Shown here: one piece after another, positions 18,401-61,199 of the stretch
Position numbering within the stretch: the stretch's first letter is position 1
Layout: each line of letters opens with the position of its first letter
Assembly (NCBI GenBank): GCA_037974965.1
Contig: JBBPFI010000005.1
Location: 620,001-684,000 of the forward strand
DNA: 64,000 bases
From: Dacryopinax spathularia
Taxonomy: Eukaryota > Basidiomycota > Dacrymycetes > Dacrymycetales > Dacrymycetaceae
Direction of reading: 5' to 3'
Position numbers and translations under genes: made by a program
The notes under the pieces: model-generated
Told to the model about the DNA's origin: nothing
Seen by the model: only the letters and a program-made list of their open reading frames with translations
Databases searched by the model: none

Positions 18401-18540
18401 GTTCGCTTTAGCACCATAATGTTGTCATCTTGTGCAGGATAGTGCGGAAGAGAGTACGCATCGAGCGGGCCAGCTGCTGGTAATGAACCGGAGTTCCAGG
18501 TCGTGAGGTAGGGCGGCTTCTCTTGGCACTCCGCTTCCAC
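15413..18540. repeat. Repeat field, dense CGGCGATAAG units
   Basis: This stretch has no gene. CGGCGATA occurs near 15862, 16194, 16903, 17271, 17634, 17811, 18190 and 18360, several of them 363-379 bases apart. Composite hairpins with TTATGTCCGA lie at 16194 and 17811-17839. 15.64-16.3 kb is a diverged duplicate of 20.15-20.8 kb (shared CAACAAAACAAAC and neighbours). 18,290-18,510, read on the minus strand, is the closest relative in the window of the sequence into which the 15-kb element inserted; the target-site equivalent is 18492-18501. Confidence 0.6.
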
Positions 18541-18911
18541 CGCCTATCGCCGAGCCAGGCCCACCAGTTATCGGCGTTACTGTTTCAGCTCAGGACTGAC
18601 AACCAACCAACTTTACATCGCTTCCCCAGCTACAACTCCTCCGGAAGGAATGCCCCGATTTCTGCGATACAGTACCCAACCGAGCAGTTGAAGCGAAATG
18701 AAGAATTGGCCCAACCGCCAATTCCGCTTCTTAAGTTCTTCCCCACCAAATCAACGCGGATGATGCGCCTCATCCTACTCAGCGTTCTTCTCCGCCTTCT
18801 CGGGCCAATCAGGGCTTCCGATTGGCGAGATGCGTCTACTCTCTGCGATATTCGCCAGTCATCCAGCGAAGCTGAAACATCCATAGAGGCCGACGAGAGC
18901 AAGGGAGAGCG

Positions 18912-35179: not shown

Positions 35180-37060
35180 ACTCTCGATACGGTTCACCTC
35201 TGATGGTGTTTTCTGCAGCTGGACTTTGGGGGCGCGTCGGGGATAGGCGTCCTTAGTGCCGAATGTCGGCGATATCTTGACGGCGATAGCGGGAGAATGA
35301 ATAGGGCCGACGGAAACCGGCCTACGTCCCTACCTCGCACTCCGGTTTAGTACCAGCCACTGTTCCGCTCGATGCATTCTACGTCCATCTGGACAAGACG
35401 GCAGCAAACGGGTGCTAGCGACGAACTGCCAATTCGCACTGACGCATTCATAGCTCCTATGCTCAAGTCATCGCCGGGCGGCCTTAAAGCCGATGACCAC
35501 TGGGACAGCAACAGGTATACAGTACCAGCGACAGAAGAGGATTCGGTAGGCACTTAACAGCCCATCGACTCAGTGCTACATGTCCTCCGTAGTCATAGGC
35601 AACTTGAAGCAGCTTCCCGAGTATAACTCCTTCTCGCGGCCTCGCCCTTATCTCCGAAGTTGCGTACGGGGACGCCTTTCCCACCTGCCTTCAAAATCAA
35701 GCCACTGTTTGCCAGCAGCAACAGAGTGAGTTTTAGGGAGAGAGCTGCTCACAAGGAACCGCCCACCAAAGCTCTATGAAGCATTCCATCACAACGTCGA
35801 AGAATGACCACTTAACGCCGACGCTGAAAACGGTGTTCCGGGTAACGCCGAACTACCTTGCCCACTCTCGTAGCTTGCCTTATGGCCACACAAAGCACTG
35901 CGGTTTAACGAAATTCCTCGCTGGAGGAAAGTGGGAGTATTTCCGCACAAGTATGTCTTAACGAAACCGTGGCTGCCTAAAAATTTACACACGTTGGACA
36001 TTATTCAGTGGCTTTTTCGCCGTTTTGTTGCCGAGCGCTCTATTTCGAGCCTCCGAAAGGTATTGCAGCTTTCAATAGCGCAGCCATATCATCGGCGCTC
36101 AAACGGGCGCGCATTGGAGGTGTGCAACCTCGCTATTCCTGCCAAGTTGAGCCTTGGAACTTGGGAGGCTTTTCGAGTTCATAGTTAGTTCTGATTTGGA
36201 CTCGGTAGGCCTTGTGACATTACACTTGACACCTGGCCACAACACTTCTTGACTGAACATGTTATAGAAAGCCGGCTGGGTTGTGAGTGACAAACGTTCA
36301 CGACCTGAATCTGCACCGCGGTTGGTGTTTGGGAAATGTTCGGCGGTAGGGGGAAATGCAGAGGCCGACCGAAGCTGGCGTGCCTCTCTGCGCTGCACTC
36401 TGTTCGGATCATCATGCAGACCGCGCGACGGCCGCATAATCTATGTACTCTTCAACCACAATGTCCGCCAGCAGGAACCGAGAGAGATTGTAAAACTGAA
36501 CAGGGAAAGCTTCTAGCCAGTACTAGGCTTATCGCCGCACCCCGTTACCGCGGACGGGGTACCAGGCGAAGACGCCCGTAGCTGGTCAGGCTCACATACA
36601 AAGAGGCAGAGTTCCTAGATCTACTGTATGGTCACCGTTTCCGGTGCTGTGAGAGGTAGGATGGGCACTCTAGCCAGACAATGAACGCCGAAGGCATTAT
36701 TTGGGTTAAAACCGAACTAGGTTCCCCAACCGGGGAACCCGCCGTCTCACAAGGCATAATCCCGCCGCTCATCAGACAGTTGGCATGAATTGGGGTTGGG
36801 CACGTATCTTGACGACGAGCACTCTGCTCCGACGAAGTGCTGTGCTTCTTCGCCTCGGAGGAACAGCAAGGAGGTTCTCAGAACAAATATATGGATCATA
36901 GTATGGGACTCTACAAGCGAGAAAAGCGGCGAACGGCGTAATAGGCAGCAAGCCTCCACACTTATGGATACGGAAAGTCATGCATATGGGCGCTTTCTAC
37001 AGTCAGTACAATACCTGGCACCAAATCCCGGCCCTCTCAAAACAACCATTCAAGCCAGAA
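35180..37060. repeat. Repeat field upstream of the 15-kb element
   Basis: No gene is supported. CGGCGATA occurs at about 35271 and 35282, and TTATCGCCG at about 36530. 35,305-35,530 matches the two flanks of the 15-kb element joined together, so it is an unoccupied relative of the insertion site; the equivalent of the duplicated target is ACCTCGCACT at 35332-35341. 36.2-36.55 kb is a diverged duplicate of 54.93-55.23 kb, and 36.7-36.9 kb of 55.43-55.66 kb. About 36.95 kb is found inverted at 22.5 kb. Confidence 0.6.
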
Positions 37061-38760: not shown

Positions 38761-38770
38761 ACCTCGAACT
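38761..38770 (+). repeat. Left target-site duplication of the 15-kb element
   Basis: ACCTCGAACT lies directly before the left inverted repeat. The identical decamer follows the right inverted repeat at 53846-53855. Confidence 0.85.
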
Positions 38771-38804
38771 ATGAGGTTACAAATGGGACAAAACCCTATC
38801 CGCG
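38771..38804 (+). repeat. Left terminal inverted repeat
   Basis: ATGAGGTTAC, then AAATGGGACA and AAACCC. It matches the reverse complement of 53812-53845 with two mismatches in the first 26 bases, after which alignment needs a small gap around CGCG. Confidence 0.85.
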
Positions 38805-38819
38805 CTAGCTCAGCAAGGG

Positions 38820-39120
38820 GGTTCATCGCCGGTTCACTGCCGGTTCACCCTCCACTCACCCTCCACTCACCCTTCACTCCCTATTCACCCTCTGTTCACT
38901 TCTCGTTCACCTCCTACTCACCCTCCATTCCTCCCTCACTCTCCTTTCACTCTCACTTCACTCTCAGCTCACTCTCTGCTCACTCTCTGTTCACTTCCAT
39001 AGTTATCTAGACTATTCACCCTAGTTTCACTCGCTCGCAATGAAAGCGCCAGGTTCACCCCTGGATCATCGCCATTTCACCCTCGCCTCACGCTAGGCTC
39101 ACCCTACAATCACTCTCCCC
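38820..39120 (+). repeat. Left subterminal array of TTCACCC/CTCACCC units
   Basis: About 300 bases are built of irregularly spaced TTCACC(C), CTCACCC and CACTCTC units, for example GGTTCACCCTCCACTCACCC and repeats of CACTCTCNGCTCACTCTC. The opposite end of the element carries the same units in reverse complement. Subterminal repeats of this kind usually bind the element's transposase. Confidence 0.8.
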
Positions 39121-39323
39121 TCATCGCTGCCTCCCCCGAAGATGTACACATTTGGGCGAACCCCGGGGCTCCCGGGTGCGAATGGTATACCTGGCTTCCC
39201 GGGCTGCCCTGGACTCTGTACGCTTTCTCTGGGGTCCTTTTGGGACGGGCTCCCCTGACTGACTCCGCTGATGTAGTGGCCGTCCCCAACTACGGTAATC
39301 GCATTTTCCTCGACCGTCGCCAT
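39099..39323 (-). CDS. Small Gly-X-Pro-patched protein at the left end
   Basis: A single frame of 74 aa from the ATG at 39323, reading outward from the element and divergent from the large gene at 39,547. It carries the patch SPGQPGKPGIPFAPGSPG in the same P-G-X frame as the other element proteins. No family is recognised. Its end overlaps the subterminal array, so it could be a remnant or a frame accident supported only by the patch. Confidence 0.35.
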   Translation of the reverse strand: MATVEENAITVVGDGHYISGVSQGSPSQKDPRESVQSPGQPGKPGIPFAPGSPGVRPNVYIFGGGSDEGRVIVG

Positions 39324-39546
39324 CAATCGAGATTATGGGCGACCGTTTTTTGCCTAGGGGAAGTGCAAGAATCCCGTGACTTTGCCCTCCTTTGTTTACG
39401 CGTCCCATTTTCTCACCGTCACCCCGACAAATCGCTTCCCGTTTACGGCCTTCATCCCTCGTACTCTATCTGCCTCTTCGTACTCAGCATCGAGCGGCCT
39501 TTCTATTCGGGCACACCTCCCACACATCCAACAATCTTCGACAGCC

Positions 39547-42500
39547 ATGGATCCTCCGTATCGCCCTGCATCGTCGGTTCCAGTTCCGCACCGTCCTGCC
39601 TTGGTACAGCCGGTGTTCAATCCCGCCAATAGCCTCGCCCGGATTCCCGGTATACCCATGGCGCCTGCGACTTTTCTTCAGCGCCTAGAGGCACAAGAAG
39701 GCGCAACCGCGAACAGCGATCGGCTCTCTGCCTCTGCTCGTCACCCTCCCGAGCAAAGGTACGGCCGAGGTGGTAGGAGAGGTGGAGCTTTGTCGAGGGC
39801 TGGGGGAACATTGGGTTCTCGCAACGAACGGGGGTTCGGTAACGGGAGTACAGAGGAGGCCGGCGTGCCTGGGATCCCCGGGATCCCAGGGAATACCGGG
39901 CATCCCGGGACAGGCGGAGATCGTCAGAGGGACGCCGGCACCGCACCAGACAGGAACGATCGACGGGCGCAGGTGTACATCATGATCCTCCCTTGCCCTG
40001 TACGTCTCCCTTCTTTTCTCCCATTCACTGCAAACTTGCTCACCATCCTCAGCTGGGTGGCATCGACCGCGTTTTTCCGTTTGTCGACGAGCAAGGATCC
40101 CGTCCTTACACTGGACTTCATGCTGATGGGCTAGCCACCATGCTTGAGCGTTTCAAGCCTCTTGGCCTGGCGTACGAGGTCAATCCGGCTGTCGCATCAT
40201 TCGAAGATCTCAACACGGCTCTGCTGGCCCACATGGAACGGTACGGGCTACATTTTCCCGGTCCTGCAAACGACGCAGACGACGATGCTCGTGTTACCCG
40301 CCCGGCCACAGCGTACAGAGGCAGGCACGCATACACGATCTTCACCCCATTGCTATATCACTTCGTGCGGCCGGCTGACCAAAGAAGCGATATCCCAGGC
40401 CCGTATCAGATCTACAACATGCCGACTGTCACCAAAGTTCACGCGCAGCTCAAGAGCGTGTATCGTCGTTGGCGAGCAAGCGACACTGGACGCCGGTTTG
40501 CAGCCCACTTGGCTTTCATTGGTTCGCTCACTGAACTGCCAATCCAGCCTTCATATTGCTAACAATACGCTCCTTTAGTTCCACGCTATGGCGGTGTTCC
40601 TGGATTTCTGCCCGACAGCCTGCAACGTGGCCCTGGAAGGCATCTGTGCTTCATTCGATGCGCTCTGCATCGTCTGTCCCATAGCGATCCCGATTCCTCT
40701 CATCTTGATGATTCGTGCCTTGGCGCTGATTGCATTGTGCCCCTTCCATCTGAGGGCACGCGAATGATCAATAGGTCCACGCCTTTCCCTGGCTTCCCAG
40801 GAAACCCACCCGCCGTAGCTACGCCCGTCGTCGGTCCTTCGGCAGACTTGGCACCCCAACAACCTGTGCCTACGACCCCTTCGACACGGTTGCCCTCCCC
40901 TTTGTCTCTTTGGGAATCAATGAGAGCAGAAGGCAGAACGCCACAGCAGAACGCTCCATCTCAGCAGTTGGTGCAAGGTGACAGCGCAGAAATCGCTGCA
41001 ACAGGCCCAGCATCGTCCCCTCATCTATCGCCATCGCCGTCTCCCAGAACTCCAAGCGAAACTCGACTGGCTGCATCCCAGGGAGAAACAGGCGCCCCAA
41101 TGGCCCAGGGAAGCCCGGGAATTCAGGGACGCCCGGGAATACAGGGGCGCCCAAGATCCACGTCCCCCTCACCACTGCGTCCTGCATCAGCACGTTCACC
41201 TCCCTGGCCGCTGTCGCCTGGTCGGCGCCGTGTAAGAGCACGCCAGCATTCTCCAGTTCGTTCCTACGTTCTACTCAGTGACGACGACTTCCCTGGCTCC
41301 TCAACGGTTGGCGTTTTCACCGCGGATCCGGATTCGGAGGGAGATGACCATGAGCCCAATTCTCCAGGTATGCCCCACTCGTCTGACTCGGGTATACTTA
41401 TTCATCATCTGTACCAGTTTGGCAGCCTCTCGAGCTCGAAACCGCTTTCACCTCCGCCGAGTCCTTGCGCTGGTCCCGAGAAGCCCGGGCCTTCATGGAT
41501 TCCCCCCCCGGTGAGAATGCTACGCCCTTCGAGGCTTACACCTATCCGGGCCAGCCATCTTCTCACACGGAGACGGCCATCGAAGCGCTTGCCGGCCAGA
41601 TAGCGTCTGACCTTTGGGGATTGCTCGGCAATGCATTCCCCAGCCCATACTCTAGGAGGCCTTCCCCTCCAGACGAGGTCCGACAGGCTCTGAAGTACTT
41701 CTGTGCTTCGCTCACGCCCCCGCATTTCAAGGTGGAGATGTAGGTGAGAGCAAGCTTGGCAGCCGCACTTCGCTGACTTATGCCATAGTTTTGCTCGAGC
41801 TGTGGTACCCGGCGGAGCCCGACGGCTGGTAACTATGGGTATCGGGCCCAGCCGAGTCACCTTTCACAGAGCGATGGAACTCTATTTTGCGAAGAAACGA
41901 CAGTCCTACACCACGACCGTGGATGACTTCATTGGAATCAACCCTTCTCAGGGGTATTCCTACACCGACAGCCTATACTGGACTGGTTTGGGCATTTTGT
42001 CATCTATATGGATCTTATCTTGCCAGACCGCTCCTTTTAACTTGTCTCCCTTTCTTCTCCTCGTGGCTGCTTCGGACGATTTTGAAGGCGGCATGCAACT
42101 TTGCGAAAAAGCCGCATTTATTCGTGCCTTTGCGCCGAGGGCCGCTGACTGGCTCAGCTCTTGGGATCGCCTTGCCAAGGACCATGTGATCGACCCATCT
42201 CCTGCGCAGCGGAGCTGTACATCTCAAGGCAAGTACAAAATGTTGGATTTTGCACATCGCCTGGATGCAATTGATGTGGTGCGTTCCATTCCTCCGTTTC
42301 GGTTGGATCGCACCTGTCTGACTCACTTTAGGACGTCCCCGATGATATCATCAGCTGGAAAATGACAAGAGCGGAACATCGCTCCATTCAAATCCGTCTG
42401 CGTAATCATTTTCTCTTTGGTCATGCTGAAGTCAGCAGTACAGTTCCGCAAATAGCGGCTTTCATGACCGGGCTGCGCCATTTTGAACGGCTTAGAAGGG

Positions 42501-43189
42501 TGAGTCAACTTGTTACCCGTGTCCCTCGCGATCGATTGATATTACACCAGTACTATGTCCACCGGGCGTTCTCGGACTTCCCTACCTTCCTGGCAGTCCT
42601 GTACCGCGATATCACACTGGACCCCGACACGTACTTGATGCAACGAGTTCGTTGGCATTCGGCGAATCCAGATGGGTCATGGCAGACCTGGTTGGATTTA
42701 AAAAACGCAATCTCCCGCTTCATTAGACGCCCGGGCCTCCCGGGACTCACATCATCACCTGGGAGCGACGGGCTACGGGCGGTCTATGCGACCCTGGGAT
42801 CACAAGGAAACCTGCCCCCTGTGGAGTCACCCGATATGCAGCGTCCGAACATTCGAAGACTGCTGCTGGATGTCGCTGTTCTAGGAGTGGAGCGGGCTCC
42901 CTCCTCCCTCCTCTACCGAGTACGTCTTCGCTTTGGATTTACGTCTTGCATGGCTCACCAGGGTGCACAGATTGAGATCGTACCCAACATGGTCGAGATT
43001 CCCGGCATTCAGGGGCCTCAGCTCAGCTCAGAAACCCTCCTCACCGCTCGGGTTTGCTTCTCGTTACTGCGCATCGACTATGGATCAAGGCTCCATGCCC
43101 TAGCTGTGGATGACGATGACGGCGAGGAGTTCGATAGGGTGTTTCTAGCTACTCTGTTGACCTCTGGGAAGAACTTCAACACCGTGTAG
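39547..43189 (+). CDS. 1092-aa element protein with diverged HECT-like C-terminal region
   Basis: The eight-exon model is join(39547..39999, 40053..40521, 40579..41367, 41418..41739, 41789..42278, 42332..42499, 42551..42919, 42971..43189). All phases close; introns are 49-57 bases with good branch points (GCTAAC, GCTGACT). The last two introns (42500-42550, 42920-42970) are 51 bases and lack in-frame stops, so retention is possible. The N-terminal half is Pro/Ser/Arg-rich with several Gly-X-Pro patches (GVPGIPGIPG, FPGFPGNPP, SPGIQGRPG). The second half resembles a HECT ubiquitin ligase. An N-lobe-like stretch has YFAKKRQ, a LYWTGLGILSSIWIL helix and NLSPFLLL. A C-lobe-like end has LLTARVCFSLLRIDY, placing a Cys where HECT has its catalytic TCFN, and the protein finishes a few residues after a final Phe. 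The HECT assignment is inference; the gene itself is well supported. Confidence 0.7.
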
Positions 43190-43280
43190 ATCTTCGATAT
43201 TATTATGCCTAATCCTAATTCCTTCATGCTCGCACTTGGTTAGGCAGGCAAGCTTCGTTCGTTGGCTCCCGCTCTGACCT

Positions 43281-43643
43281 TTTATCAACAAAGTCGCTTG
43301 CTCCTCCAACAGCCCGCCGCCTGCTTACGATGCCTGGAGCACTACTATTGAAAGCGACACTGTGGACATCATACAGAATCCCAATCCTACATCTTGCTCC
43401 ATCTGCCCTTCGAGTCCCAGTCACCCCGGGTCTCTCAGGCATCCCGGGCATCCCGGGCATCCCGGGAAGCCAGGGGTGCACATGGGTGGGGATACCAAAT
43501 CTGTCTACCTTACCAATCCCATCTCGGAGCAGCAAGCCATTGCTGTCGTCGACAAGAAAGTGCGCGTCAATGAAGCTCCGTGGATGGCTCTGGCCAGTAT
43601 CAGCTGCCAAGAAGACGCACCGAGCTCCGTCGATGTGATGTAA
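43281..43643 (+). pseudogene. Truncated copy of the 243-aa element gene
   Basis: The frame 43281-43643 reads SPPPAYDAWSTTIESDTVDII, then NPNPTSCSICPSSPSHPG, a HPGHPGHPGKPG patch, TKSVYLTNPISEQQ and VDKKVRVNEAPWMALASISC. It is nearly identical to residues about 34-145 of the gene at 50867-51598, but it lacks that gene's N-terminal 35 residues and diverges after ISCQ. A stop lies just upstream at 43278. It is either a fragment left by duplication within the element or an exon of an unseen gene. Nothing else of note lies between it and the gene ending at 43954. Confidence 0.5.
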
Positions 43644-43953
43644 CTCGTTCAATTGTTCTGTCCAATGTACTACTACCTACTAACAGCCGATGCAAGGGTG
43701 GGTCGCGAGACGTATAGAGACAAGCTTCCGTATTGTACAACTCAAGAGAGAGAGGGGAGAGTCAAGGTCCAAGAAAAACGGGAATAAGGCGCCTCCAGGA
43801 GACAGAAGATGTCGCAGCGGGAGTTACGAGTATACCGGGTATCTCTGGAACATCTGGATTCACGGGATGAGCTGGTGACCGAGTAGAACCTGGTCAGCGA
43901 GCAAGGTGGACAAGGAGAGAGTCATCAAAACCGCTTCAATCAAAATTTTCGTG

Positions 43954-45731
43954 CTAGCATAGAAATAAGAACACGTCATCAATAAATATTGCATCAGGGC
44001 TTACGATGTCACGCTCCTCCGCATTATAGGCATTGTCGTGGAGAACCCTGTGCGTACGACCCGCATTTTCCAGCATGTTTGACGCGATGCTGCGGAGCGT
44101 AGCATTGAAAATGCGATCATTGCCGAACAGCTTGATAGCAAAGTTGAGCTTGGCATCCGTGGTAACGTCGTGTCTTGTGAGGATGTTGATTGCATCCTTA
44201 AGAACCTCCTGGATGTCCCTGTCGGGGTCACCGTTGGGATCTTCTTCCAGTTCAGGCTCCTACGAGAGGCATGAGCGCGACAACATGGGATACCTGTCAA
44301 CTCTCACCTTGCCCTTGCTACCGGCGAGAAACTTGGCCGTCTCTCGCATCTTTTCCGCCGCTTGCTCCATATTCTGTGCGAGTTTCACAAGGCCTTCACC
44401 TTCCTGTCTCAAGTGCGACGAGAAGATACGAGCATCGCTGAACAGCGTTTCCGCGAACTCCAACTTGACCGAATACCGCAGTCCCGGGCGGGCAAGGCGT
44501 TCAAGGGCTTCCTTCAATATATCAGCGGGATGCTTGCTGATCGGCTTCTTCTTCGGTCGGAACATGGCATCCGGATCCTCCTGTCATATGTGGTGAGTAG
44601 ACTCAAGAAGGAGCATATATGCGCTTACCTCCTCGTCAGACTCTTGAGTACGCCGATCCCGCTTGCCGTTGGACTATATGCGCAGTCAGGAGCACATTCG
44701 CGACCAGTGCAAGCGTCGGTGCATACATTTGTATTGGAGCTCCCGCCACCCTCGTCCCTACCCTTCCCCTTTCCTTTGGTTGAGGTGTCCAGCTTAGGTG
44801 ATTCAAAGCGGACGTTCGGACGGCGAGATTTGCGGGGAGGCGTGTCCGTTTGATCTTCGTCGTCGCTGCCAGCTTGGTGAGGAGCGGGCGTCCCGGGCGT
44901 CCCGGGTTTCCCTGGTTTCCTAGGGCCTGATGACCCCCCTCCTCCTCCTCCGCAACCGCCCTTTCCTCCACGGTTACTCCCAGAGCGGTTTGCATTCGCC
45001 TTCTTCTTCTTCTGCTCCGATTGACGCTTCTTCTGAGCCGCCCTCAACTGACGATCGAGTTTCGCGGACAGTTCGGCTGCCTCCTTGACGCTGCGTTTCC
45101 CCTTGGCGATATCTTCGCGGGCCACCTGGACGGGATCCTCCACAAGGATATCGGTTACATCGTACTGCGGGCCTTTGCCGCGTGGATAACGATGCTTGCC
45201 GGTGACGTTCAGTCCAATGCCTTGCTTGCGACGTGCCTGGACAGCCTCGGCTTGTTCTATCAGTCCCAGTAGTCAGTATATGCGGGCGGGCGGATGGGCG
45301 ACACGCGGCTTACCCCAATGACCACACTTGCACTCCGGGTCATCTTCAAAGCAGCACGCTGGAGGTGTGTTAGTCTATGAGCGAAGCAAGCAAGCTAGCG
45401 AATACATACCGTAGACGGTCCGTCCCATTCTGGTGAAGATCTCCTTAGCGATACGGACGTGCTTACAAACCTCCTTACGGTAGCCATCCGCTTGGCTCAA
45501 GAAGAATTCGCCTTGAAAGTTGTAGACGGTGAGCATGCCGTCGTCGGTGGTGTCGTCGTCGGAGTTGTGCTCGGACGACGACTCGTCTGGGTTGTCTGTG
45601 TCATCGGGAGACCCGGGAGCACCTGGACTCCCGGTGCTCCCTTTGTTGTTGAGGATCTCAATGTCGCTCTCGTCCAACTGAGGCGGCGACGGTGTACGAC
45701 GAGTGTGACGGCGGACAAGTATTCCAGGCAT
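43954..45731 (-). CDS. 506-aa element protein with Cys-rich motif and duplicated helical domain
   Basis: The six-exon model is complement(43954..44259, 44308..44580, 44629..44673, 44727..45256, 45314..45358, 45410..45731). Introns are 48-57 bases, and every phase closes. The order is an acidic N terminus with the patch STGSPGAPGSP; then a tiny exon giving CCFEDDPECKCGHW, a possible metal site; then a basic coiled-coil-like Lys/Arg stretch (QLRAAQKKRQSEQKKKK). A Gly-rich segment with KPGKPGTPGTP follows. Last are two related helical units of about 60 residues: DILKEALERLARPGLR..LKFAE-type with LFSDARIF, and DIQEVLKDAINILTRHDV..LNFAIKLFGNDRIF. The duplicated unit (alpha-helical, [DN][AD]RIF motif) is not one I recognise. 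Function unknown. Confidence 0.7.
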
Positions 45732-46064
45732 TGTGTATGCGCTTGTCTTCGACCAAGTTGACCTCGGGCAGGCTCAGGACTGGTTTGTAGCACGGGATTG
45801 TGAGTGATTATGTTGAGTTGTCAAGTCTGATGTTAAGAATGAGGTAGGACGTCCAAGAAGGTGAAGGTAAGAAAGAGAGATGACTTGCAAGAGAGGAGGA
45901 AGCGCCGGGTTTATGTATGCGGGCGGTTTGCGAGCCACGCGGACATTTCGGAGATTGTGATTGTGACTACAATCGCAATCGCAATCCCAACTCGCCACAA
46001 TGACTCATTCGACTGTCGCGGCACGGTGGAGGCAGTCGCTTGCATGACTGATGGGCGAGAGCAG

Positions 46065-47560
46065 TCAGGCTGTGCTTCTTCCAGCACAAAGATAGCCGGG
46101 GCCAGGTCTATCGAAGAGATCCCAGTGAGCAACGGGATTCCAGAGACGCTCGGGCCGATTGGGGTGCCCGGGGAGCGCAGGACTCGAAGGGCAGATGGAG
46201 CAAGATATAGGATTGGGATTCTGTATGATGTCCACAGCGTCGCTTTCGGCAGAGCTGGGATTGGTAAGGTAGACGGATTTGGTATCCCTACCCTTGTGCT
46301 CCCCTGGCTTCCCAGGATGCCCGGGATGCCCGGGATGCCTGAGAGACCCGGGGTGACTGGGACTCGAAGGGCAGATGGAGCAAGATGTAGGGAGTGGGAC
46401 TTGATGATGGATCGTAGAGAGCAGGGCCTTCCCTTGCCTCCCGTTGGTCGTGCCGAGTGAGATGGAACGGTCTGTAATTAAGTGACACAGTTACAACACG
46501 AGGTTAACTACTGACCAAACTGTCCTACTGGGCGGCGCCACCATTCGGGATGTAGCCTTTGTATGTTCCTCTCCAAGGTCTGGCGTCTCGTCGTCCTTGC
46601 GGCAGCGGCTATGACGCCAGCAGGCGTGCCTTCGCAGATCGCTGAGCGTGCAGCACTAGAGGGAGCGAAACAGTAGCCAACAATTCCGGCCGTGATCAGC
46701 TTCTGCCGGCCGACCTCCGTCATATTGTCCTCGCTATCCCAACAATGACGCCTTTGATGAAACCAATCCCGCTGGAAGTCCCAGAATGCCCGAAGCCGCT
46801 TCAACTTAGTGCGGTAGTTGTCCAGCGTACGTCGGGAAGTTTCTCTCGCGCGTGGCATTTTGGTGAACCAGTGGACCAAGTCATGAGACGTGATCCTCCC
46901 ATCCCAGTCGACGGGGTCAGCGGCGATGTGGACATCTCGTTCCGCTAAGAACGTCATACCCAGTGCGGTAGCTGTCTCGTTGAACAGCTCCAGTCGCCGC
47001 ACGAACCAGATGACGGAGGAGCGGGGCACGAGCTCGCCATCCATGCGCAAGTCTTCAGAGAAGGATGTATGCACATGTGGGAAAGTGCGAGTAAGATACT
47101 GCATACGAGACTGGAAACCAGGCTGACTTGTCAGGCCGGTCGTATCGTGAGTGTTGACTTGCTGAGGCTGACCGTTGCTGTAGCTGGGCTGGTTGCGTGC
47201 TTGGCCGGGACCGTGGGAAGCACGCAATGGTTCCTCGGATTGGACGGCTTCGACCGAGACGTTCCTCTCGTGCGATGGCGTAGAAGGTGAAGGGGTGTGG
47301 GAAGGCGGCAAAACAATATCAAGAGGTCGCGAAGCGGTCGCATGCAAGTCCCGAGCCACTCGGCCCCGGTCCGGAGAAAGTGAAGGACGGGGCGAAGGAG
47401 TGCGAGGTGGGGTGTGCGGCACCATCCCCATGATGCTGCGTCGGGGAGCGGATAATGCTACCAGATATAGCACATATACCTTCCCCACATACCAACTCCT
47501 CGGTACGTTGGGGGGCAACGTCGCGATGAATCGCTGTGTGCGGGGATCGCCATGATCCAT
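46065..47560 (-). CDS. 464-aa element protein, Pro-rich with C-terminal Gly-X-Pro module
   Basis: The three-exon model is complement(46065..46471, 46516..47435, 47493..47560). Introns have GTATGT and GTCAGT donors, and the phases close exactly on the stop at 46065. After a Ser/Pro-rich N terminus (HTPPRTPSPRPSLSPDR) comes a folded-looking central part: SSVIWFVRRLELFNETATALG, HDLVHWFTKMPRA, RRTLDNYRTKLKRLRAFWDF, LHPEWWRRPVGQFG. The last exon adds the module SCSICPSSPSHPG, a HPGHPGHPGKPG patch and TKSVYLTNP. A second, partial repeat of the module follows (VDIIQNPNPISCSICPSSP). The same module is in the genes at 43.3 and 51 kb, so it has been copied between element genes. The central part could be a DNA-binding domain, given its basic helices, but I recognise no family. 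Confidence 0.65.
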
Positions 47561-47904
47561 GGGGAACAGGGAAGCCAAGGAGCCCAGGGAATCCTGAATA
47601 TCCTGGTCGTCCGAGAGGATGTTGCCCAACGTGCCAAGGACCAGGTGCGAATGGAATGAGCTACTGTTGGTGGAAGGGATCCGGGAGGTGGCTAGCGCAA
47701 AGTTGCTGTATCGGGGCGATAAAAACCGGGATAATCCATGGGAAGGAACAGTTGCAGAGGTGCGGAAGATCCTTCGGAGGAGGAGGAGAGGGGATGCATC
47801 TTGAGGCCGATTTGTTTTCATCTTTGCACGGCTGTAAGGGACGCCTTTTGATTGATCTGATTCGAATACGATGACAACCACCGAGAACCGAGTTTCTGTT
47901 TCAC

Positions 47905-48658
47905 TCATGAGTAAAGTGATGACGAATCAAAGGTAGGCATACCTGCTTCTCCTGGACCATGAAGTCGTGTGCCACCGTGCTCAAGCTCTGCCTGATCACC
48001 GCTCCCTGCTGCGAGCGGTGGAGGCTGTACCAGTCCATCAGGTCCTTCTATAAGCTGGACTGGCACAGCAGTATCTTCTGGGGTGGAGCCATCAGGGTTG
48101 ATCTGACCTGCGACAGAACCAGGATCGGCCGGGGGGGAGCCCACCCGGAGAGAGGGTGTCGAGGTCCTCTGGCTGCTTTGGTGGCCGGCGTCGTCGAACG
48201 GGGAGCTGGAGCGCGCCCCTGGACTCCCTGGACTCCCTGGACTCCCTGGCATCTCAGGAGGGAAGGGAGGACCAATACGCTCCCTTGCAAGCCTGACGAC
48301 GGACCCAAGGTACCTGCCTCAGATTCAGTTACGATCCATTCACGGCCTTCGACTTGACTCATACATACAAGTTCATGCTTTCGTAGACGCCTCCTGCAAG
48401 CTCGCTATTGTCATTATGTCCCTCCCTCCCTCCGCCTGTCACATCCCCTCCTTCTCCAAGAGGCTCGATGGCGCCTGTCGCTCGTGCGGTTGATGCACTG
48501 GTGTCGGTCGTCAGGGTCGAGGTGGAGGGAGGAAGTTCGTTGAGTTGGCTCGGTCCGCCCAAAGCGCCGAGGGTTGGGGAAGGGGGATTGCCAGCACTGC
48601 GGCTGGCGCCTCTGATGCGTCGCTGATGCCGTGTCAAGTAGTGAGGTTCCATGGGCAT
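47905..48658 (-). CDS. 231-aa low-complexity element protein
   Basis: The two-exon model is complement(47905..48313, 48369..48658). The 55-base intron has a GTATGT donor, and the join gives NLYLGSVVRLARERIGPPFP. The protein is largely disordered (Ser/Thr/Gly/Pro-rich), with the patch EMPGSPGSPGSPGARSSSP in the middle. No domain is recognised. Upstream on the same strand (48.74-48.80 kb) another patch (PGCPGIPGLQLRG) is open in a different frame and may belong to an unmodelled 5' exon. It lies between the integrase gene and the 464-aa gene, all transcribed leftward. Confidence 0.5.
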
Positions 48659-48885
48659 GAGGCCAAGGATATTGAGGAGAGATACAAAGATTGCTTGGTC
48701 GCCTGGACACGTTGGATTTCAGGGTCTTTTCCAGTGGGCGCTTTCCCCCTCAGCTGCAGGCCAGGGATTCCCGGGCAACCAGGGAAGAACAGATTGACAG
48801 GCATCAACACGAATTACTTTTGCAGGTGCTAGTTACATCGGATCCATAATGGATCAGCTGACAGAGGGAGATACGGGAGATACGT

Positions 48886-50625
48886 TCATCGCGCGAAGGT
48901 ACTACATGCCTGGAGGGCGCGCCTCCATCGTTCAGTCATTGTCAGCAGATCAGAGGACAAGAAAAGACCAGATAATCTGTGTACCAATTCCCCAATCTGC
49001 GAAGCACTTAGCGGACAGGGAAGCGCCGGTGAGTTGATATTTGAAAGCTCCGCTGGGATAGCGTCCATATCCACAGAGCTGGCGGCGAAGCCACTGGGCT
49101 GCGGAAGACTGAGGCCTACCTGCAATGGGTCAACCCCCTCCTCCCTCTCCAAGGGTTCTGGTTCCCCTTCCACCTCAGAGCCGTACAGGGGCGGGTCGAG
49201 ATGATACTCCGGATCGTCTGGGGGGAGCATATCGATACCTCGGGCGCCGAGAGAAACGCAGCCGTCCAGAAAGAGGTCGGCCGGTCGTTGATTACCTTCT
49301 GCGAGGCTCATGGTGTGGTGGTTCCACTGGTTCTGGAAGGTAATGGCGTCGTTCATGATGTCCCTGAGAAACAGCCAGTGGAGGAGCCAGAGGTGGTCCA
49401 GGTTGGAAGAGTTTAGCCCGTGTGAGGCCTCAAGCGTGCGGAAGAAATTGGACCACTTCCTTCCAAAAGAGTTTGTGACATCCACCCACATTCTCTCGAT
49501 TCGAGTGTTATGGACGGATCGTCCCCACAGGTAGGATCCACGATTTCTGCCCCTATGCTCCAACATCCACTCAGCCACCTTTACGTTCTCGCCTCCATGA
49601 TCCCCTCGTACCCTTGAGGGCGTGCCGAACAGGGACATCCCTTCGAGGAAGACTGACAATACAGCTGCGGAGCTGTTTGTAGGGTTAACTCGAATAGCTG
49701 TAACGCAGCGAGAGAATCCGTCCACAAAGGCGTGGATGTATAGTCCCCACTGGACCAGTCCGTGCTGGCCATCGTGGTGCCATAGGGAATTTGGTCCTGC
49801 GACTGAATAAGGACGCCGGGGTATCTGTCGACGATTGAAGGAAAGCGGTTCCGGATCGATGCGGCGGAGAGAAGCTGTCAGTTGTCGCAGGGGCACCCGA
49901 TATCCCAGGGAAACCAGGTAGCCGTTGAGGAGACTACGCCCGTTTTCAGGAAAACGCCGGCGCCAGTCGAGGACCAGCGCGTCGAGTTCTTCTTCTGTCA
50001 CGTCCCGGGGATGACGGCGCCGTCCAGGCCAAAGCAAACGAGTTTCTCCGCTGTCGAGGACGACGTGCTCAACCACGGGTGGACCAGCTTGGGCGAGGCC
50101 GTATTCCAAAAGTCGTCGTCGTACGGTTCGTCTACTGACTTTCAATCGGCGTGCGATAGCAGAGGTGGAGGCCAAGGGAGTTGTTTGGCTCAAGTACACT
50201 TTGTTTATGCTGATTCTAGGTCGACCAGGATGGCCCGTTCCCCCGGGCGACCTGGTGATGACCTGAGGCGCGGCTCTCGGGATAGCATCGTCGAGGCAAC
50301 GAGCACGAGCTTCGTCAAGCTTGGACAACATGTCCATCAGATCGCGCTCAATCCTGGCAACATCGGCCGCACAGAACAGGTGAACTAGCTGAATGCAGCA
50401 TGAGTTCTGGCACTGACAAGAGTATGATCCATCAGCACTGACCTCAGTAGTAGCCTCCCAGAAATGGATGACCAATAGCCGCGTTGCATCCAACCGGCCC
50501 CGATTGCCCACATCGATCCGTAGAGTTGCTATCACTATCTGCTGCAGGCGATCAAAGTGATGCCCAACGGTAGCTGCTGCAAGCTCCGGGCGATGTAGAA
50601 GTGCAGCCGGATTGAAGGTAGCCAT
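48886..50625 (-). CDS. Integrase/transposase with HTH and DDE (rve) core
   Basis: An uninterrupted reading frame of 579 aa. I chose the ATG at 50625 because the frame above it (to 50730) has no Met, although it carries a further patch (GHSGVPGVP) and might be an upstream exon. Near residues 65-85 lies a Cys cluster (CQCQNSCC). Residues 126-137 are SPGGTGHPGRPR, and 153-176 form a helix-turn-helix (STSAIARRLKVSRRTVRRRL). The rve core follows: Asp285 in LWHHDGQHGL, Asp342 in VRGDHGGENV and Glu377 in HNTRIERMW, a D-D-(34)-E spacing. The surrounding GPNSLWHHDG, DGFSRCVT and HNTRIERMWVDV blocks match the integrase-core proteins abundant in mushroom genomes. It should cut and join the element ends in the nucleus. 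All catalytic residues are intact, so it may be active. Confidence 0.88.
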   Translation of the reverse strand: MATFNPAALLHRPELAAATVGHHFDRLQQIVIATLRIDVGNRGRLDATRLLVIHFWEATTEVSADGSYSCQCQNSCCIQLVHLFCAADVARIERDLMDMLSKLDEARARCLDDAIPRAAPQVITRSPGGTGHPGRPRISINKVYLSQTTPLASTSAIARRLKVSRRTVRRRLLEYGLAQAGPPVVEHVVLDSGETRLLWPGRRRHPRDVTEEELDALVLDWRRRFPENGRSLLNGYLVSLGYRVPLRQLTASLRRIDPEPLSFNRRQIPRRPYSVAGPNSLWHHDGQHGLVQWGLYIHAFVDGFSRCVTAIRVNPTNSSAAVLSVFLEGMSLFGTPSRVRGDHGGENVKVAEWMLEHRGRNRGSYLWGRSVHNTRIERMWVDVTNSFGRKWSNFFRTLEASHGLNSSNLDHLWLLHWLFLRDIMNDAITFQNQWNHHTMSLAEGNQRPADLFLDGCVSLGARGIDMLPPDDPEYHLDPPLYGSEVEGEPEPLEREEGVDPLQVGLSLPQPSGFAASSVDMDAIPAELSNINSPALPCPLSASQIGELVHRLSGLFLSSDLLTMTERWRRALQACSTFAR

Positions 50626-50866
50626 AGCTTGCTGTAAGAGCCACGGGACACCAGGGACTCCCGAGTGTCCAAGTGAGGCAACGGAGAAGTAGGTCGGAGC
50701 CAAGTTTCCCTCACCTTGCGGCACGGTCAATATGACACGGGAGAGGCGTTAAGCTGAAGTGCGTGTAACGAAGACCTTGCTTGGCATGGGTATATATTGA
50801 ACACAGCCTACAACTACGTGCTACTTGAGAAGAACGAGAAACTTTCAAAAGGGTGCATGACGTGTA

Positions 50867-51598
50867 CTAAGCGGACGAAGGGAGACATTGGCCCAGCTTC
50901 GCAAGCCCATTCCACACAGCGTTCGCAGCAAGGGCCGGAGCTTGCATCAGATGAACAAGATTCTCGGCTACCTGTACGCCACGAGCGAAGGCTAGCATCC
51001 GCTCCTCCTTGGCCTCATCCGTCTCGATTGACCTCACAGGCGAATGCCGATGCCTCGACTCTTGGCCTGAGAGGCCACCCAACAAGTACTGTGCACAACG
51101 GGCTGGGAGTTTGATTAGGTCGAGGGTGGTGTCGATGACCCGAGCGGTGTTGGTGTAGGACCATTCGTAGAGACGTGCCTTCTCTTCGTCAACCTTCGTT
51201 GCGTCTCCTTGGCAGCTGATACTGGCCAGAGCCATCCACGGAGCTTCATTGACGCGCACTTTCTTGTCGACGACAGCAATGGCTTGCTGCTCCGAGATGG
51301 GATTGGTAAGGTAGACGGATTTGGTATCCCCACCCGTATGCTCCGCGGGCATCCCGGGATGCCCGGGATGCCTGAGAGACCCGGGGTGACTGGGACTCGA
51401 AGGGCAGATGGAGCAAGATGTAGGATTGGGATTCTGTATGATGTCCACAGCGTCGTTTTCGATAGTAGTGCTCGAGGCATCATAAGCAGGTGGGCTGTCG
51501 CAGGGTGATTGGGTCCCACCACCGCCACCATGTTCCGGCGTTGCAAGGGAACATGGCGAGGTGGAAGGGGATAAGTTGTGGGTGGTTTGTATGACCAT
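50867..51598 (-). CDS. 243-aa element protein with Gly-X-Pro module
   Basis: A single frame from the ATG at 51598. The N terminus is Ser/Pro/Gly-rich. Next comes SPPAYDASSTTIENDAVDII, SCSICPSSPSHPG and a short patch HPGHPGMPAEHTGG, then TKSVYLTNPISEQQAIAVVD and NEAPWMALASISC. It ends in amphipathic helices (ARVIDTTLDLIKLPARCAQ, MLAFARGVQVAENLVHLM). The frame is fixed by the shared module in the truncated copy at 43.3 kb and in the last exon of the 464-aa gene. Family and function are unknown. Its stop lies 240 bases beyond the integrase start, on the same strand. Confidence 0.65.
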   Translation of the reverse strand: MVIQTTHNLSPSTSPCSLATPEHGGGGGTQSPCDSPPAYDASSTTIENDAVDIIQNPNPTSCSICPSSPSHPGSLRHPGHPGMPAEHTGGDTKSVYLTNPISEQQAIAVVDKKVRVNEAPWMALASISCQGDATKVDEEKARLYEWSYTNTARVIDTTLDLIKLPARCAQYLLGGLSGQESRHRHSPVRSIETDEAKEERMLAFARGVQVAENLVHLMQAPALAANAVWNGLAKLGQCLPSSA

Positions 51599-51796
51599 TG
51601 TAAGTCGTCACTGCTTTGGATTCTATAAGACAAAGTAATGTTGAGTGTTGGGTTAGGATGGATGGCTACTGACTAGACGTACCAGTCTTAGGAGATAGTG
51701 GTCGTAGTGGAGCAAGGATGCAAAAGCTTCCGATGCAGCTGACACGGTTGAAACAATGCATTTGCGGAGCCGTATGGTCCACGTGGAGTGCTGCAG

Positions 51797-51870
51797 GTTA
51801 GGGTTAGTAGGGTTAGTTAGGGTTAGTTAGGGTTGGCAGGGTTGGCAGGGTTGGCAGGGTTCCCGATAAC
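51797..51870 (+). repeat. Interstitial telomere-like tract
   Basis: GGTTAGGGTTAGTAGGGTT, then two TAGTTAGGGT units, then three or four GGTTGGCA units. TTAGGG is the usual fungal telomere repeat. This short, imperfect tract lies inside the element between the 243-aa gene and the membrane-protein gene, directly upstream of a further PGSPG-type patch near 51.89 kb. Confidence 0.85.
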
Positions 51871-52180
51871 ACCCGATAACCCGGGAAGCCCTGGGAATGA
51901 CGTCAAGACAAGCCCGATTCAAAATCACGCACATGAATTATTTGACTTTATCGATAAGATAGCAGCCCACTGTCTATCTGGCAATGTGCGAGCACGTAGG
52001 ACATGCAGTCGGAGTTTCAGTTCAGGGATTAGGTAATATGCTTTACTGATCTAGCTATCTCTACGCGTACGGCCGAATGCAGAACACCAACAAGCAGGTT
52101 GACAAACCGTAGAGAACATGATCATGCTAACAACCCAGGGAATCACACCAGAGAAGGGAATAAGAGGGAAAGGTATGTGA
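51871..52180. other. Element spacer
   Basis: About 300 bases without a supported gene. An isolated Gly-X-Pro patch near 51.88-51.90 kb is open on the plus strand in a short frame (NPGSPGND) and on the minus strand as FPGLPGLSG. Either may be a lost exon. Confidence 0.4.
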
Positions 52181-53107
52181 CTAGTGCAGGGTGCCCGTAG
52201 CATTAAGGAAAGCGAGCGTGGCAGACGCGGAAGGGATCGAACTCATGCTGGGAATGGGAACGGCCTGCTGCGACTTCACGAGTAGGCTGATGCCTATATA
52301 CAAGTGAGCAAAGACGTACCGCCAGGAAGAGAATGTAAACATACCAAAGCCAATGGCGATGAAGATGGCGATGAAGACGATCGCGAAGAATGTACCGGAC
52401 ATGCAGCGTCCGGCATTTTCGTCCGTACAGGCATCCCCGCAGGCGGCCAGGCAGGCCGCAGCGACATGGAGGCAGTCACGAATGAACTTGTTGAGCTTGG
52501 ACCCGCACCCGTTCATAAACTTACCGACTGCCATACAGATGTCGAGGCAGTCGAATGCCGCCTTCCTGCTGGCGTCTTCGAGTGCCCTGCGTCGGAGATG
52601 TTCGAGCTCGCGACGCTCGGATGCCGTCAAGGCAGTCGTATGATGCCTGGGACGCCCTGGACGCCCTGGACGCCCTGGACGCCCTGGACGCCCAGATCGC
52701 CCTGGACGCTCGAGATCCATATCTTCAGCGGGTGCCGGTGGAACTTGGGCCACGTTATCCGAGTTCTGCACGATGGATCAGCTCGAATTAGCAAAGGATG
52801 GACGGACGATGTGCACCTGGGCAGCGACGCCACGTTCCTCAGCCTCCAACATCTCCTCTTGTTCGTTAGCGTCGCCACCGTCACTCCCGTAGTTGCTGAC
52901 TTCGGAATCAGAGTGCTCCGAGCCATCGCCGTTGTTGGTGGAGTTACGAGGACGCAGGAGTCCTTCTTCGAGGCTTGCAGCTGCCGAATCGGTCGTACGG
53001 TTTCTGAGGGACTGACGCTGAGCGAGTTCCTGGCCGAGCAAGTCGCAATTGAAGGGCTTGCCGGCCTTTTTCGCCGCATCCGAAATACCTTGAAGTAAGC
53101 GAGACAT
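52181..53107 (-). CDS. Cys-rich single-pass membrane protein of the element
   Basis: The three-exon model is complement(52181..52293, 52345..52765, 52817..53107), with 51-base introns 52294-52344 (GTATGT donor; also open in frame, so it might be retained) and 52766-52816 (GTGCAC..GCAG with a GCTGAT branch). The protein has an N-terminal helix (MSRLLQGISDAAKKAGK) and an acidic middle (EQEEMLEAEERG). The longest collagen-like patch of the element follows (RPGRSGRPGRPGRPGRPGRP). Then come a basic helix and a region with about nine Cys (FDCLDICMAVGK, CLHVAAACLAACGDACTD). Next is a membrane segment (GTFFAIVFIAIFIAIGF) and a short tail. The layout, collagen-like stalk then Cys-rich part then anchor, suggests a membrane-bound oligomer, which is unexpected in a transposon. 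Function unknown. Confidence 0.6.
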
Positions 53108-53369
53108 TGTCGAGGTGGATGGCGGATGGATGGAGCAGGAGAAAGAGGCGAGAGAGTAGGAGATGAGACGAGGATGAGGATGGCATCCGCAGATTGTGGT
53201 GACAACGCGCGGGCTGAAGATGATCGGGAGCAATTGGCCGGGAGCAATTTACATGCGGCTTACCGCAGGCTAGGGACCGCTTTCACGTGATCCTCTGGGG
53301 GTCGCATTTCGCTCAGATGATGTTAAAATAATATATATTTAATAAAAAGCTAATCTACATTACTTTCTA

Positions 53370-53612
53370 ATGCTACCAGTACGAGCCCCAGGTGTCCTGG
53401 GGAGCCCGGGAAGCGAGGGATTCCAGCTACAACGAAGAGTACCCGGACGAACCGGTCGACGGGCTATTCACATGCTAAGATCGAACGCGGGCGGGGACTC
53501 TTCTCCACAGGGACCCCTGTTGTATCGGGTCGCAGGCGACGTGCGGAACAGGGGATTAATAAGGTCGGCAGGAGAGGGGATCTCGGTCGGCTGGGGATGC
53601 GAAGCTTGTTGA
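53370..53612 (+). CDS. Small open frame at the right end
   Basis: 80 aa from the ATG at 53370, reading outward toward the right terminus and mirroring the small gene at the left end. It has a weak patch (GVLGSPGSEG) and is otherwise Arg/Gly-rich. Support is only its position and the patch; it may be non-functional. Confidence 0.3.
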   Translation: MLPVRAPGVLGSPGSEGFQLQRRVPGRTGRRAIHMLRSNAGGDSSPQGPLLYRVAGDVRNRGLIRSAGEGISVGWGCEAC

Positions 53613-53647
53613 GCGGTTTGCGCCAGCTCAACAAGGTGAAAAACGCG

Positions 53648-53805
53648 TTCACCGTCCAAGGGTGAACGGAGGGTGAGAATCGGGAGTGAACGGAGGGTGA
53701 AAGCAGGGTGAGAACGGGATGAGAACGGGGTGAAGGGTGAAGTGAGAGTGAATTGAGGGTGAAATAACCCTAAAAACTGTGAATGTAGGGTGAACCGAGG
53801 GTGTG
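53648..53805 (-). repeat. Right subterminal array of GGGTGAA units
   Basis: About 160 bases of GGGTGAACGGA, GGGTGAGAA, GGGTGAAGTGAGAGTGAA and similar units, the reverse complement of the TTCACCC units at the left end, giving inverted symmetry beyond the short terminal repeats. Confidence 0.8.
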
Positions 53806-53811
53806 GCTTGC

Positions 53812-53845
53812 TCGCGTAAGGGTTTTGACCCATATGTAACCTCAT
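53812..53845 (-). repeat. Right terminal inverted repeat
   Basis: Read on the minus strand it begins ATGAGGTTAC, ATATGGGTCA, AAACCC; see the left repeat at 38771. Confidence 0.85.
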
Positions 53846-53855
53846 ACCTCGAACT
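53846..53855 (+). repeat. Right target-site duplication of the 15-kb element
   Basis: ACCTCGAACT, identical to 38761-38770. The sequence that continues to the right (CCTGTTCAGTACCAGCAGCTGG) is the continuation of the unoccupied relatives at 18.5 and 35.3 kb. Confidence 0.85.
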
Positions 53856-60644: not shown

Positions 60645-61199
60645 CGTGGTGGTGGTGGTGGTACAGAGGAGAGGGACGGGGGTATCGTGCGGAGGGCGTG
60701 GGGAGGGTATGATGTGAGGGGGGGGAGAGTGCCGGATGTGGGGAAGTCTGATGGAATGATGGTCCCTCATATCGGGCGTTACATCGGGGGTATGCTCGCG
60801 TCGGCTATAAGGCGCCAATCCCTCGTATCTCCGTGCTAAACTTGCTTCAGCCTCATACCGCCTGCGCCTCTTTGCTTTTCGCTTTCCTACGGTCCCCTCT
60901 GCTCTCTTGTTTTCACCCCGCTCGTTCGGACCGGTACTCACGATCTGGTGCTGCTGCTACGAAGACTAAGGTGTGCAAGGAATGGCGCTTCTAACCACTG
61001 CGCCGCACCGCACAGTCCACTGCCGGCGTGTACAGCTCCGCTCCCGAATGCCCGGCGGCGCGCTCTTCTCCGATGTCGACCTCCTCCGTCTCATACTGTC
61101 TACAAACCCCAGAATACTATAAAGGCATGAATCCAACGTGTCCACCAGTTCTATGCTCGGACTCGGACTTCTCTACTGCAGCGAACTTCTCTGATCATC
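60645..61199 (+). promoter_or_regulatory. Divergent promoter region, esterase / luciferase-like gene
   Basis: 555 bases are shared by two genes starting in opposite directions. A TATA box (TATAAAG) lies at 61118-61124, about 75 bases before the luciferase-like ATG. The esterase side is GT/CA-rich. This arrangement would allow co-regulation. Confidence 0.4.

Follow-up and report, generated by a model that had tools for sequence, protein, structure and literature searches.

A window of 64,000 nucleotides from the basidiomycete Dacryopinax spathularia (contig C5:620001-684000; genome of 29.2 Mb in 24 contigs) contains a large mobile element, here called element A (Table 1). Between its inverted ends it carries a DDE transposase gene, a set of orphan companion genes, a pair of internal inverted repeats and arrays of nine-base units. 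Judged from its sequence, element A is very probably a complete giant DNA transposon of the IS3EU type with an open transposase gene. A sequence-only reading of the window had proposed a large complete DNA transposon with an rve-type integrase, and both ends, the target-site duplications and the PF24764/rve match bear this out.

Ends, insertion site and transposase of element A

The inverted ends and the subterminal arrays at both ends described in that reading are present, the host baseline for the TCAC[CT] motif being 1.25 per 350 bp on both strands. The sequence ACCTCGAACT flanks element A on both sides and occurs only twice in the window. Joined without the element, the flanks of A align with no interruption at the junction to two stretches: the complement of 18.25-18.79 kb (199/256 identities for the junction-crossing piece) and 35.28-35.49 kb (148/217 identities). 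The two unoccupied sites suggested for the window thus hold up. Because the joined flanks align uninterrupted to two other places in the window, the insertion is real independently of the repeats. The unoccupied sites derive from large, diverged and inverted paralogous segments surrounding A, with window positions 12.7-22.5 kb corresponding to 35.0-38.8 and 53.8-58.6 kb, mostly at 72-80% identity by piece.

The ends also recur elsewhere, as the sequence-only reading had proposed to check. A 27-base terminal inverted repeat (TIR) pattern with up to three mismatches matched 18 places genome-wide, nine per strand, and the reversed-pattern control matched none. A T precedes all nine left ends and an A follows all nine right ends. 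Four of the copies introduced below (E, F, M1 and M4) are unambiguous at either end: the host bases next to their duplications are not the T and A in question, and the duplications measure exactly 6, 7, 6 and 6 bp. Since these neighboring bases exclude a longer repeat, the T and the A are the element's own. Comparison of the copies therefore places element A at 38770-53846 with the 8-bp duplication CCTCGAAC. The element is complete, as first described, with each end one base further out than the 38771..53845 originally given. The 10-bp duplication claimed with those ends is ruled out by the multi-copy comparison, as it is really 8 bp in A and 6-8 bp in its relatives. The longer count included the element's own T and A and arose because the target of A happened to carry an A before and a T after the duplication.

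The transposase open reading frame (ORF) of A has 614 codons. In addition to PF24764, it matches rve (E 4e-8), with weak helix-turn-helix matches toward the N-terminus and no zinc-finger or HHCC match in the Pfam scan. The three putative catalytic residues are invariant in 16 aligned proteins, of which three belong to this genome and the others are fungal or animal. By sequence, the nearest solved structures are the integrase cores of human T-cell leukemia virus type 2 (HTLV-2; E 0.001). The main transposase matches of copies A, B and C have no stops, and the ratio of nonsynonymous to synonymous change (dN/dS, by the Nei-Gojobori method with synonymous sites near saturation) is 0.07-0.09 for the three pairs among them (0.09 for A/B, 0.07 for A/C). 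A midpoint-rooted FastTree phylogeny was built from 93 sequences, comprising eight transposases of this genome (without D and J) and 85 of 120 listed database proteins. The eight form a single clade with support of 1.0 among fungal PF24764 proteins. The animal PF24764 proteins form a separate group of 11 (support 0.99) that includes one fungal protein, from Trichosporon, and four unnamed ones.

Table 1. Features of element A and its insertion site. Positions are those of the window.
Feature	Position	Strand	Remarks
Element A, complete, 15,077 bp, TATGAGG...CCTCATA	38770..53846	.	six further gene-bearing copies and short copies have the same or related ends
Left target-site duplication CCTCGAAC	38762..38769	+	
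Right target-site duplication CCTCGAAC	53847..53854	+	
Left TIR, 28 bp	38770..38797	+	26/28 bases matched
Right TIR, 28 bp	53819..53846	-	26/28 bases matched, TA counted
Left subterminal array, ~11-bp TTCACCC-like repeats	38820..39105	.	22 TCAC[CT] motifs in terminal 350 bp
Right subterminal array, inverted orientation	53659..53763	.	12 TCAC[CT] motifs in terminal 350 bp
Paralogous unoccupied site 1	18249..18787	-	joined flanks of A align
Paralogous unoccupied site 2	35281..35488	+	joined flanks of A align
DDE transposase (D320, D377, E412)	48889..50730	-	PF24764, E 4e-58; conserved among copies from ~50625 downward
g6, 1,117-amino-acid orphan protein	39547..43189	+	six exons: 39547-39972, 40053-40521, 40579-41367, 41418-41739, 41789-42278, 42332-43189
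g4, 466-amino-acid orphan protein	46511..47908	-	in 7/7 copies A-G
g1, two adjacent ORFs	52184..53248	-	one with hydrophobic stretch; approximate model
g2 ORF	50870..51607	-	~2-fold third-position bias, mainly 50870-51296
g5a/g5b, conserved ORF pieces	43957..45596	-	approximate model
Internal inverted repeat, arm 1	51157..51504	+	91.9% identical to arm 2, inverted
Internal inverted repeat, arm 2	43303..43659	-	
Third, partial copy of internal repeat	46252..46409	+	
9-bp CCNGG array within g1	52656..52687	.	1 of 19 tracts in A
9-bp CCNGG array	48218..48249	.	outside coding models
9-bp CCCGGGNNN array	46303..46334	.	outside coding models
9-bp CCCGGGNNN array	44892..44915	.	within g5a
9-bp CCCGGGNNN array	43443..43474	.	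in arm 2
Two adjacent 9-bp tracts	39868..39909	.	within g6
9-bp array near left end	39190..39212	.	inverted counterpart near 53396-53409

Copies and relatives in the genome

The genome encodes seven gene-bearing copies, A to G, of 12.3-16.9 kb and with the same or related TATG..CATA ends. Ten of the 18 TIR-pattern matches bound five of these copies: A in the window, B on contig C2, C and D on C8, and E on C3. A further four mark the ends of two short copies, M1 (457 bp) and M2 (471 bp). F (C3) and G (C8) contribute one matched end each; completed, these two copies show slightly different TIRs (TATGACGGGACA). The last two, on C8 and C1, are one and the same end standing alone inside a 99% identical duplicated stretch. 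Stretches of about 99% identity are found on different contigs (C4:523000-542999 with C11:391000-410999; C8:347000-356999 with C1:2491900-2501899); they are large segmental duplications or haplotype copies and have transposon relatives inside.

Exact duplications of 6-8 bp flank six of the seven gene-bearing copies, the exception being D with one mismatch in 7 bp. The short copies M1 to M4 (457-488 bp) share the TATG..CATA design and have exact duplications of 6-7 bp. Across the 11 elements having both ends and a duplication, all of which carry TATG...CATA, the duplication is 7 bp in six (B, C, D with its mismatch counted, F, G and M2), 6 bp in four (E, M1, M3 and M4) and 8 bp in A. The subterminal TCAC[CT] motifs are strong in A-D, with 10-22 per end, and weak in E-G, with 0-9 per end. 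M1 and M2 retain the ends together with 13-14 of these motifs per half. A second group of short elements, 447-488 bp long with TATGACGAGAC-like ends, lies at C8:1528789-1529266, C8:1592767-1593254, C7:168959-169436 and C5:827560-828006. The C7 pair is a thirteenth candidate end pair, known as positions only. No gene-bearing partner of this group was found in the genome.

Copies A-G are all distinct from each other. The closest pair, C and D, is 83.6% alike over the aligned parts, and the other alignable pairs are 71-74% alike, except for A and F at 80.5% over only 128 bp. Synonymous divergence of the transposase among A, B and C exceeds 1.5. Each element lineage thus seems to persist at very low copy number.

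More distant relatives were found with the transposase, which gave 46 matches grouped into 23 loci. Relatives of g6 are present at 15 loci, all within 42 kb of a transposase locus and up to 41 kb apart from it. A g6 match is lacking at eight of the 23 transposase loci. The two genes are convergent at 13 of the 15 loci; the exceptions, I and J, duplicate one another at 99.4% identity. A distance of 26-41 kb separates the transposase from g6 in five distant relatives (transposase/g6 at C7:1518038/1549073, C6:1443097/1401733, C8:1636074/1663299, C14:354348/328267 and C8:747186/717754) and, given that spacing, these elements may exceed 30-40 kb.

Companion genes, internal repeats and nine-base arrays

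When A, B and C are aligned, the rate of change at third codon positions is about 1.5 to more than 10 times that at the first two positions in the transposase, g1, g2, g4, g5a, g5b and g6. The bias is least marked in g2 and in the latter half of g1. For g4, dN/dS is 0.15-0.17 among the three copies and the frame is free of stops in A, B, C and F. This pattern of substitution indicates that the companion genes are under purifying selection. The g6 introns of A are GT-AG introns of 49-80 bp, picked by eye to fit the conserved frames; the models for the other copies are rough, some with stops. Pfam gave no above-cut-off match for any companion ORF of A, and PDB gave none below E 1 for g4 or the C-terminal part of g6. 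Residues 560-1117 of g6 matched nothing in a database search. A profile of the g6 C-terminal part found three proteins among 8000 candidates scored, all from Calocera viscosa, which points to a dacrymycete host and not an agaricomycete. Two of the three have a best identity to this genome of at most 62% among the matches listed, so that the host is a different strain from theirs. A HECT-like end of g6, suggested by eye, is unsupported by Pfam or PDB profile searches. In the open-licence literature, covered as titles, abstract openings and passages with supplements and Repbase outside the scope, nothing joins HECT with IS3EU or integrase-core transposons.

Tandem AACCCTAAC-like, telomere-like repeats lie at about 51750-51900 of the window (1951-2100 of element A) and show no third-position bias. 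A similar stretch is present in B and C, with a short run in E. Outside the element, the window encodes a sodium/hydrogen exchanger (31857-33656; PF00999, E 2e-40) and, as neighbors, a pair of Abhydrolase_3 alpha/beta hydrolase genes (59634-60941 and 62881-63864).

A, C, E, F and G contain the inverted pair of internal repeats. Arm 1 lies upstream of the transposase; arm 2 precedes the 3' end of g6 and, in A, is between the 3' ends of g5 and g6. The simplest reading is gene conversion or recombination between the arms, and we consider it probable that such exchange keeps them alike and permits inversion of the block between them. Within an element the arms are 91.9% (A), 86.1% (B), 98.0% (C), 91.5% (E), 95.3% (F) and 96.1% (G) identical. 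Between elements, the first arms are clearly above eight shuffles in only four of 15 pairs (A-B, A-C, B-C and F-G), slightly above in three (A-E, A-F and B-E) and not above in eight. In E, moreover, g4 and g5 lie as one block in reversed orientation, bounded at 5335-5562 and 11899-12115 by inverted copies of the arm. Against exchange between the arms, recent independent duplications at the same places are an alternative source of the likeness, and only one clear inversion was seen. B has its pair at 7.3 and 10.2 kb and lacks arm 1 near 2.3 kb. Arms are also missing from D, whose arm-1 region seems lost, and from the 20-kb stretches of relatives H and I.

CCCGGG occurs 30, 37, 32, 18 and 20 times in A to E, once in F and four times in G. 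First-order simulations (30 each) gave an expectation of 5-7 and a largest count of 12, and flanking host DNA has seven in 38 kb and none in 10 kb. Defining a tract as at least two CCNGG units at 9-bp spacing, we counted 19 in A, 20 in B, 13 in C, 10 in D, nine in E and none in F or G; 48.8 kb of host DNA contained a single pair. Three tandem units of CCCGGGNNN with at most one mismatch are present at 24 places genome-wide, 23 of them in A, B and C (5, 11 and 7) and one at C6:431012; the reversed-pattern control gave one. Tract positions are shared between copies: for 15 of the 19 A tracts a B tract lies no more than 25 alignment columns away, against an average of 2.1 under circular shifts, which reached 15 once in 2000, and nine of 19 align with C tracts (shift mean 1.4). 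Nine of the A tracts are in coding models (9,429 of 15,077 bp), several reading Gly-x-Pro, and ten are outside, a split that rests on the approximate g1, g2 and g5 models.

Copy G carries arrays of TCGAAGGAN instead, and all three exact three-unit matches are inside it. With one mismatch, seven of 13 matches are in G and control counts are 4 and 2, making the CGAAG type of array less exclusive than the CCCGGG type. A search for CGAAG-motif clusters found one in G and none in F. F has an excess of similarity at lag 9, partly from GGA repeats, with no clear single motif. In the short copies, CCCGGG is absent from M1 and M2 and present once each, never in tandem, in M3, M4 and M5 (TATGACG-type).

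The arrays may be, at somewhat less than even odds, slippage-prone low-complexity DNA, or selected collagen-like peptide linkers, without any role at the DNA level. The unit length is a multiple of three, the tracts in g1, g5a and g6 read Gly-x-Pro, and there are weak sub-cut-off matches to the Pfam Collagen family. Their near-exclusivity to three elements genome-wide, the ten A tracts outside coding models and the retention of tract positions despite synonymous divergence above 1.5 argue the other way.

In excerpts of PMC5735166, the targets of VANC21 are tandem arrays of the 9-base motif YAGTATTAY, which vary between related VANDAL families. By analogy, a family-specific factor encoded by the element might bind the CCCGGG arrays and so protect or mark the element's own DNA, an idea we regard as possible though doubtful. 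It would account for the confinement of 23 of 24 matches to A, B and C, the different 9-bp motif of the sister element G, the positions shared between A and B, the tracts outside coding models and the absence of tandems from all five short copies. It fits less well with the nine tracts in coding models, several encoding Gly-x-Pro-like repeats, as VANC motifs are mainly non-coding, and with F, the sister of G, which lacks a clear array of this kind. Tracts of at least three units also number only two in D and three in E, and only seven of the 13 one-mismatch TCGAAG matches are in G, with control counts of 4 and 2.

On these sequence grounds, the PF24764 DDE transposase with D320, D377 and E412 would recognize the 28-bp terminal repeats, and probably also the subterminal 11-bp arrays, and excise element A. 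Joining to a target with a 6-8 bp stagger would give the duplication, and short copies with the same kind of ends may be mobilized in trans. Because the short copies are too small for genes and lack the dispersed 9-bp arrays, these arrays are unnecessary for mobility and neither they nor the companion genes are needed at the ends, while the subterminal arrays may be. In gene-bearing copies, the companion genes and 9-bp arrays would then serve expression, copy-number control or escape from silencing. For TET/JBP genes (PF12851), known from rust and Tuber IS3EU elements, a genome search gave no match in A-G and only four TET/JBP-like exons outside them, all below cut-off (C8:998044, C13:1016521, C8:499943 and C8:761543). 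The scanned ORFs of A matched neither TET/JBP nor alpha-kinase. A wider scheme by analogy with VANC, which we think unlikely, is an independently evolved self-recognition system: lineage-specific 9-bp arrays would be read by a co-evolving element protein that blocks silencing in place of TET/JBP demethylases, and conversion-kept inverted repeats would allow the gene block to change orientation. Of the observations still without an explanation, the strongest are the near-exclusive 9-bp arrays and the concerted inverted repeats.

Assignment to IS3EU and comparison with known systems

According to excerpts of PMC10045372, complete IS3EU families always have TA..TA termini, usually a 6-bp duplication and no HHCC motif. 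In excerpts of PMC12730594, rust IS3EU elements have 6-bp duplications, ends of the form TAYGG..CCRTA and extra genes. Element A was provisionally assigned to IS3EU by its termini, its duplication of 6-8 bp in the family and its DDE integrase, and we infer that PF24764 corresponds to IS3EU. The suggestion of an undescribed type therefore probably fails at the superfamily level, where the published IS3EU description fits except that 7 bp is the commonest duplication here; the lineage and its internal organization look new.

Several observations weigh against this reading. The commonest duplication here is 7 bp (6/11) and not 6 bp (4/11). The transposase matches of D, E, F and G contain 2, 1, 3 and 2 in-frame stops, and a separate N-terminal piece of B has three, which may be introns or damage since that search ignores introns. 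In a twelfth, short copy (C5:827560-828006) the duplication does not extend past one base, and one end reads AATG. The ends of H, I and J were not found in TIR and duplication searches, where the stretches, to judge from the companion-gene positions, were probably too short. That these giant transposons make up a new superfamily, with no more than a distant relationship to IS3EU, is very improbable: the size of 12-17 kb with orphan companions, the prevalence of 7-bp duplications and the fully supported clade of the eight transposases among 93 PF24764 proteins would suit one, but the TA..TA termini, the TATG/CATA ends and the 6-bp duplications of four elements agree with published IS3EU, and the clade sits among other fungal PF24764 proteins.

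The same open-licence literature holds no description of such elements. None of the giant transposons in excerpts of PMC6431247 is like element A, and excerpts of PMC8955403 give IS3EU numbers in Ganoderma only as a mention. Within this reach, the giant IS3EU lineage, its companion genes, the 9-bp arrays and the internal inverted repeats look new. The analysis corrects a plausible claim of a new superfamily, fixes the ends of the element by multi-copy comparison and extends IS3EU-type elements to giant, multi-gene forms. It offers a testable case, in a fungal transposon, of family-specific DNA arrays and concerted internal inverted repeats, and bears on whether fungal elements evolved sequence-specific anti-silencing like plant VANDALs.

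The sequence-only reading had set the element apart from Polintons, KDZ (Kyakuja-Dileera-Zisupton) elements and Starships, and the gene scans, the PF24764 transposase and the TA..TA termini agree with it. Polintons/Mavericks are likewise large, with an integrase-type enzyme and a 6-bp duplication (excerpts of PMC10045372); they differ from A with its TA..TA termini, and no polB, packaging ATPase or capsid gene turned up when the conserved ORFs of A and its spliced g6 were scanned against Pfam. Ginger1 and Ginger2 have duplications of 4-5 bp, and Ginger1 an HHCC domain, whereas the duplications here are 6-8 bp and no such domain was matched. KDZ elements are also fungal DNA transposons with accessory genes. 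The Zisupton duplication is 8 bp (excerpts of PMC12730594), a length seen here in one of 11 elements, and the transposase here is PF24764. Starships have a tyrosine recombinase captain; here the only trace is a sub-cut-off match to Phage_int_SAM_1 in two of seven g4 proteins (best E 0.033), and a tyrosine-recombinase reading of g4 was rejected. The 9-10 bp duplications of Academ-H (excerpts of PMC10045372) would fit the earlier boundary and not the corrected value of 6-8 bp, and no helicase, a feature of Academ-H, was matched in the scanned ORFs of A, whose transposase is of the PF24764 family.

Like the VANDAL/VANC elements of Arabidopsis, the elements carry family-specific tandem arrays of a 9-base motif internally, though the likeness is weaker for the G motif and none was seen in F. 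The hosts are unrelated, the fungal arrays are also in coding regions and the likeness is anatomical only. The VANDAL transposase is unrelated to that of element A. With IS3EU (and GingerRoot) the elements share the DDE integrase-type transposase and the TA..TA termini, and they come close to its duplication of about 6 bp. They differ in their length of 12-17 kb, possibly more than 40 kb in distant relatives, in having 7-bp duplications most often, and in forming a lineage with orphan companion genes, 9-bp arrays and internal inverted repeats.

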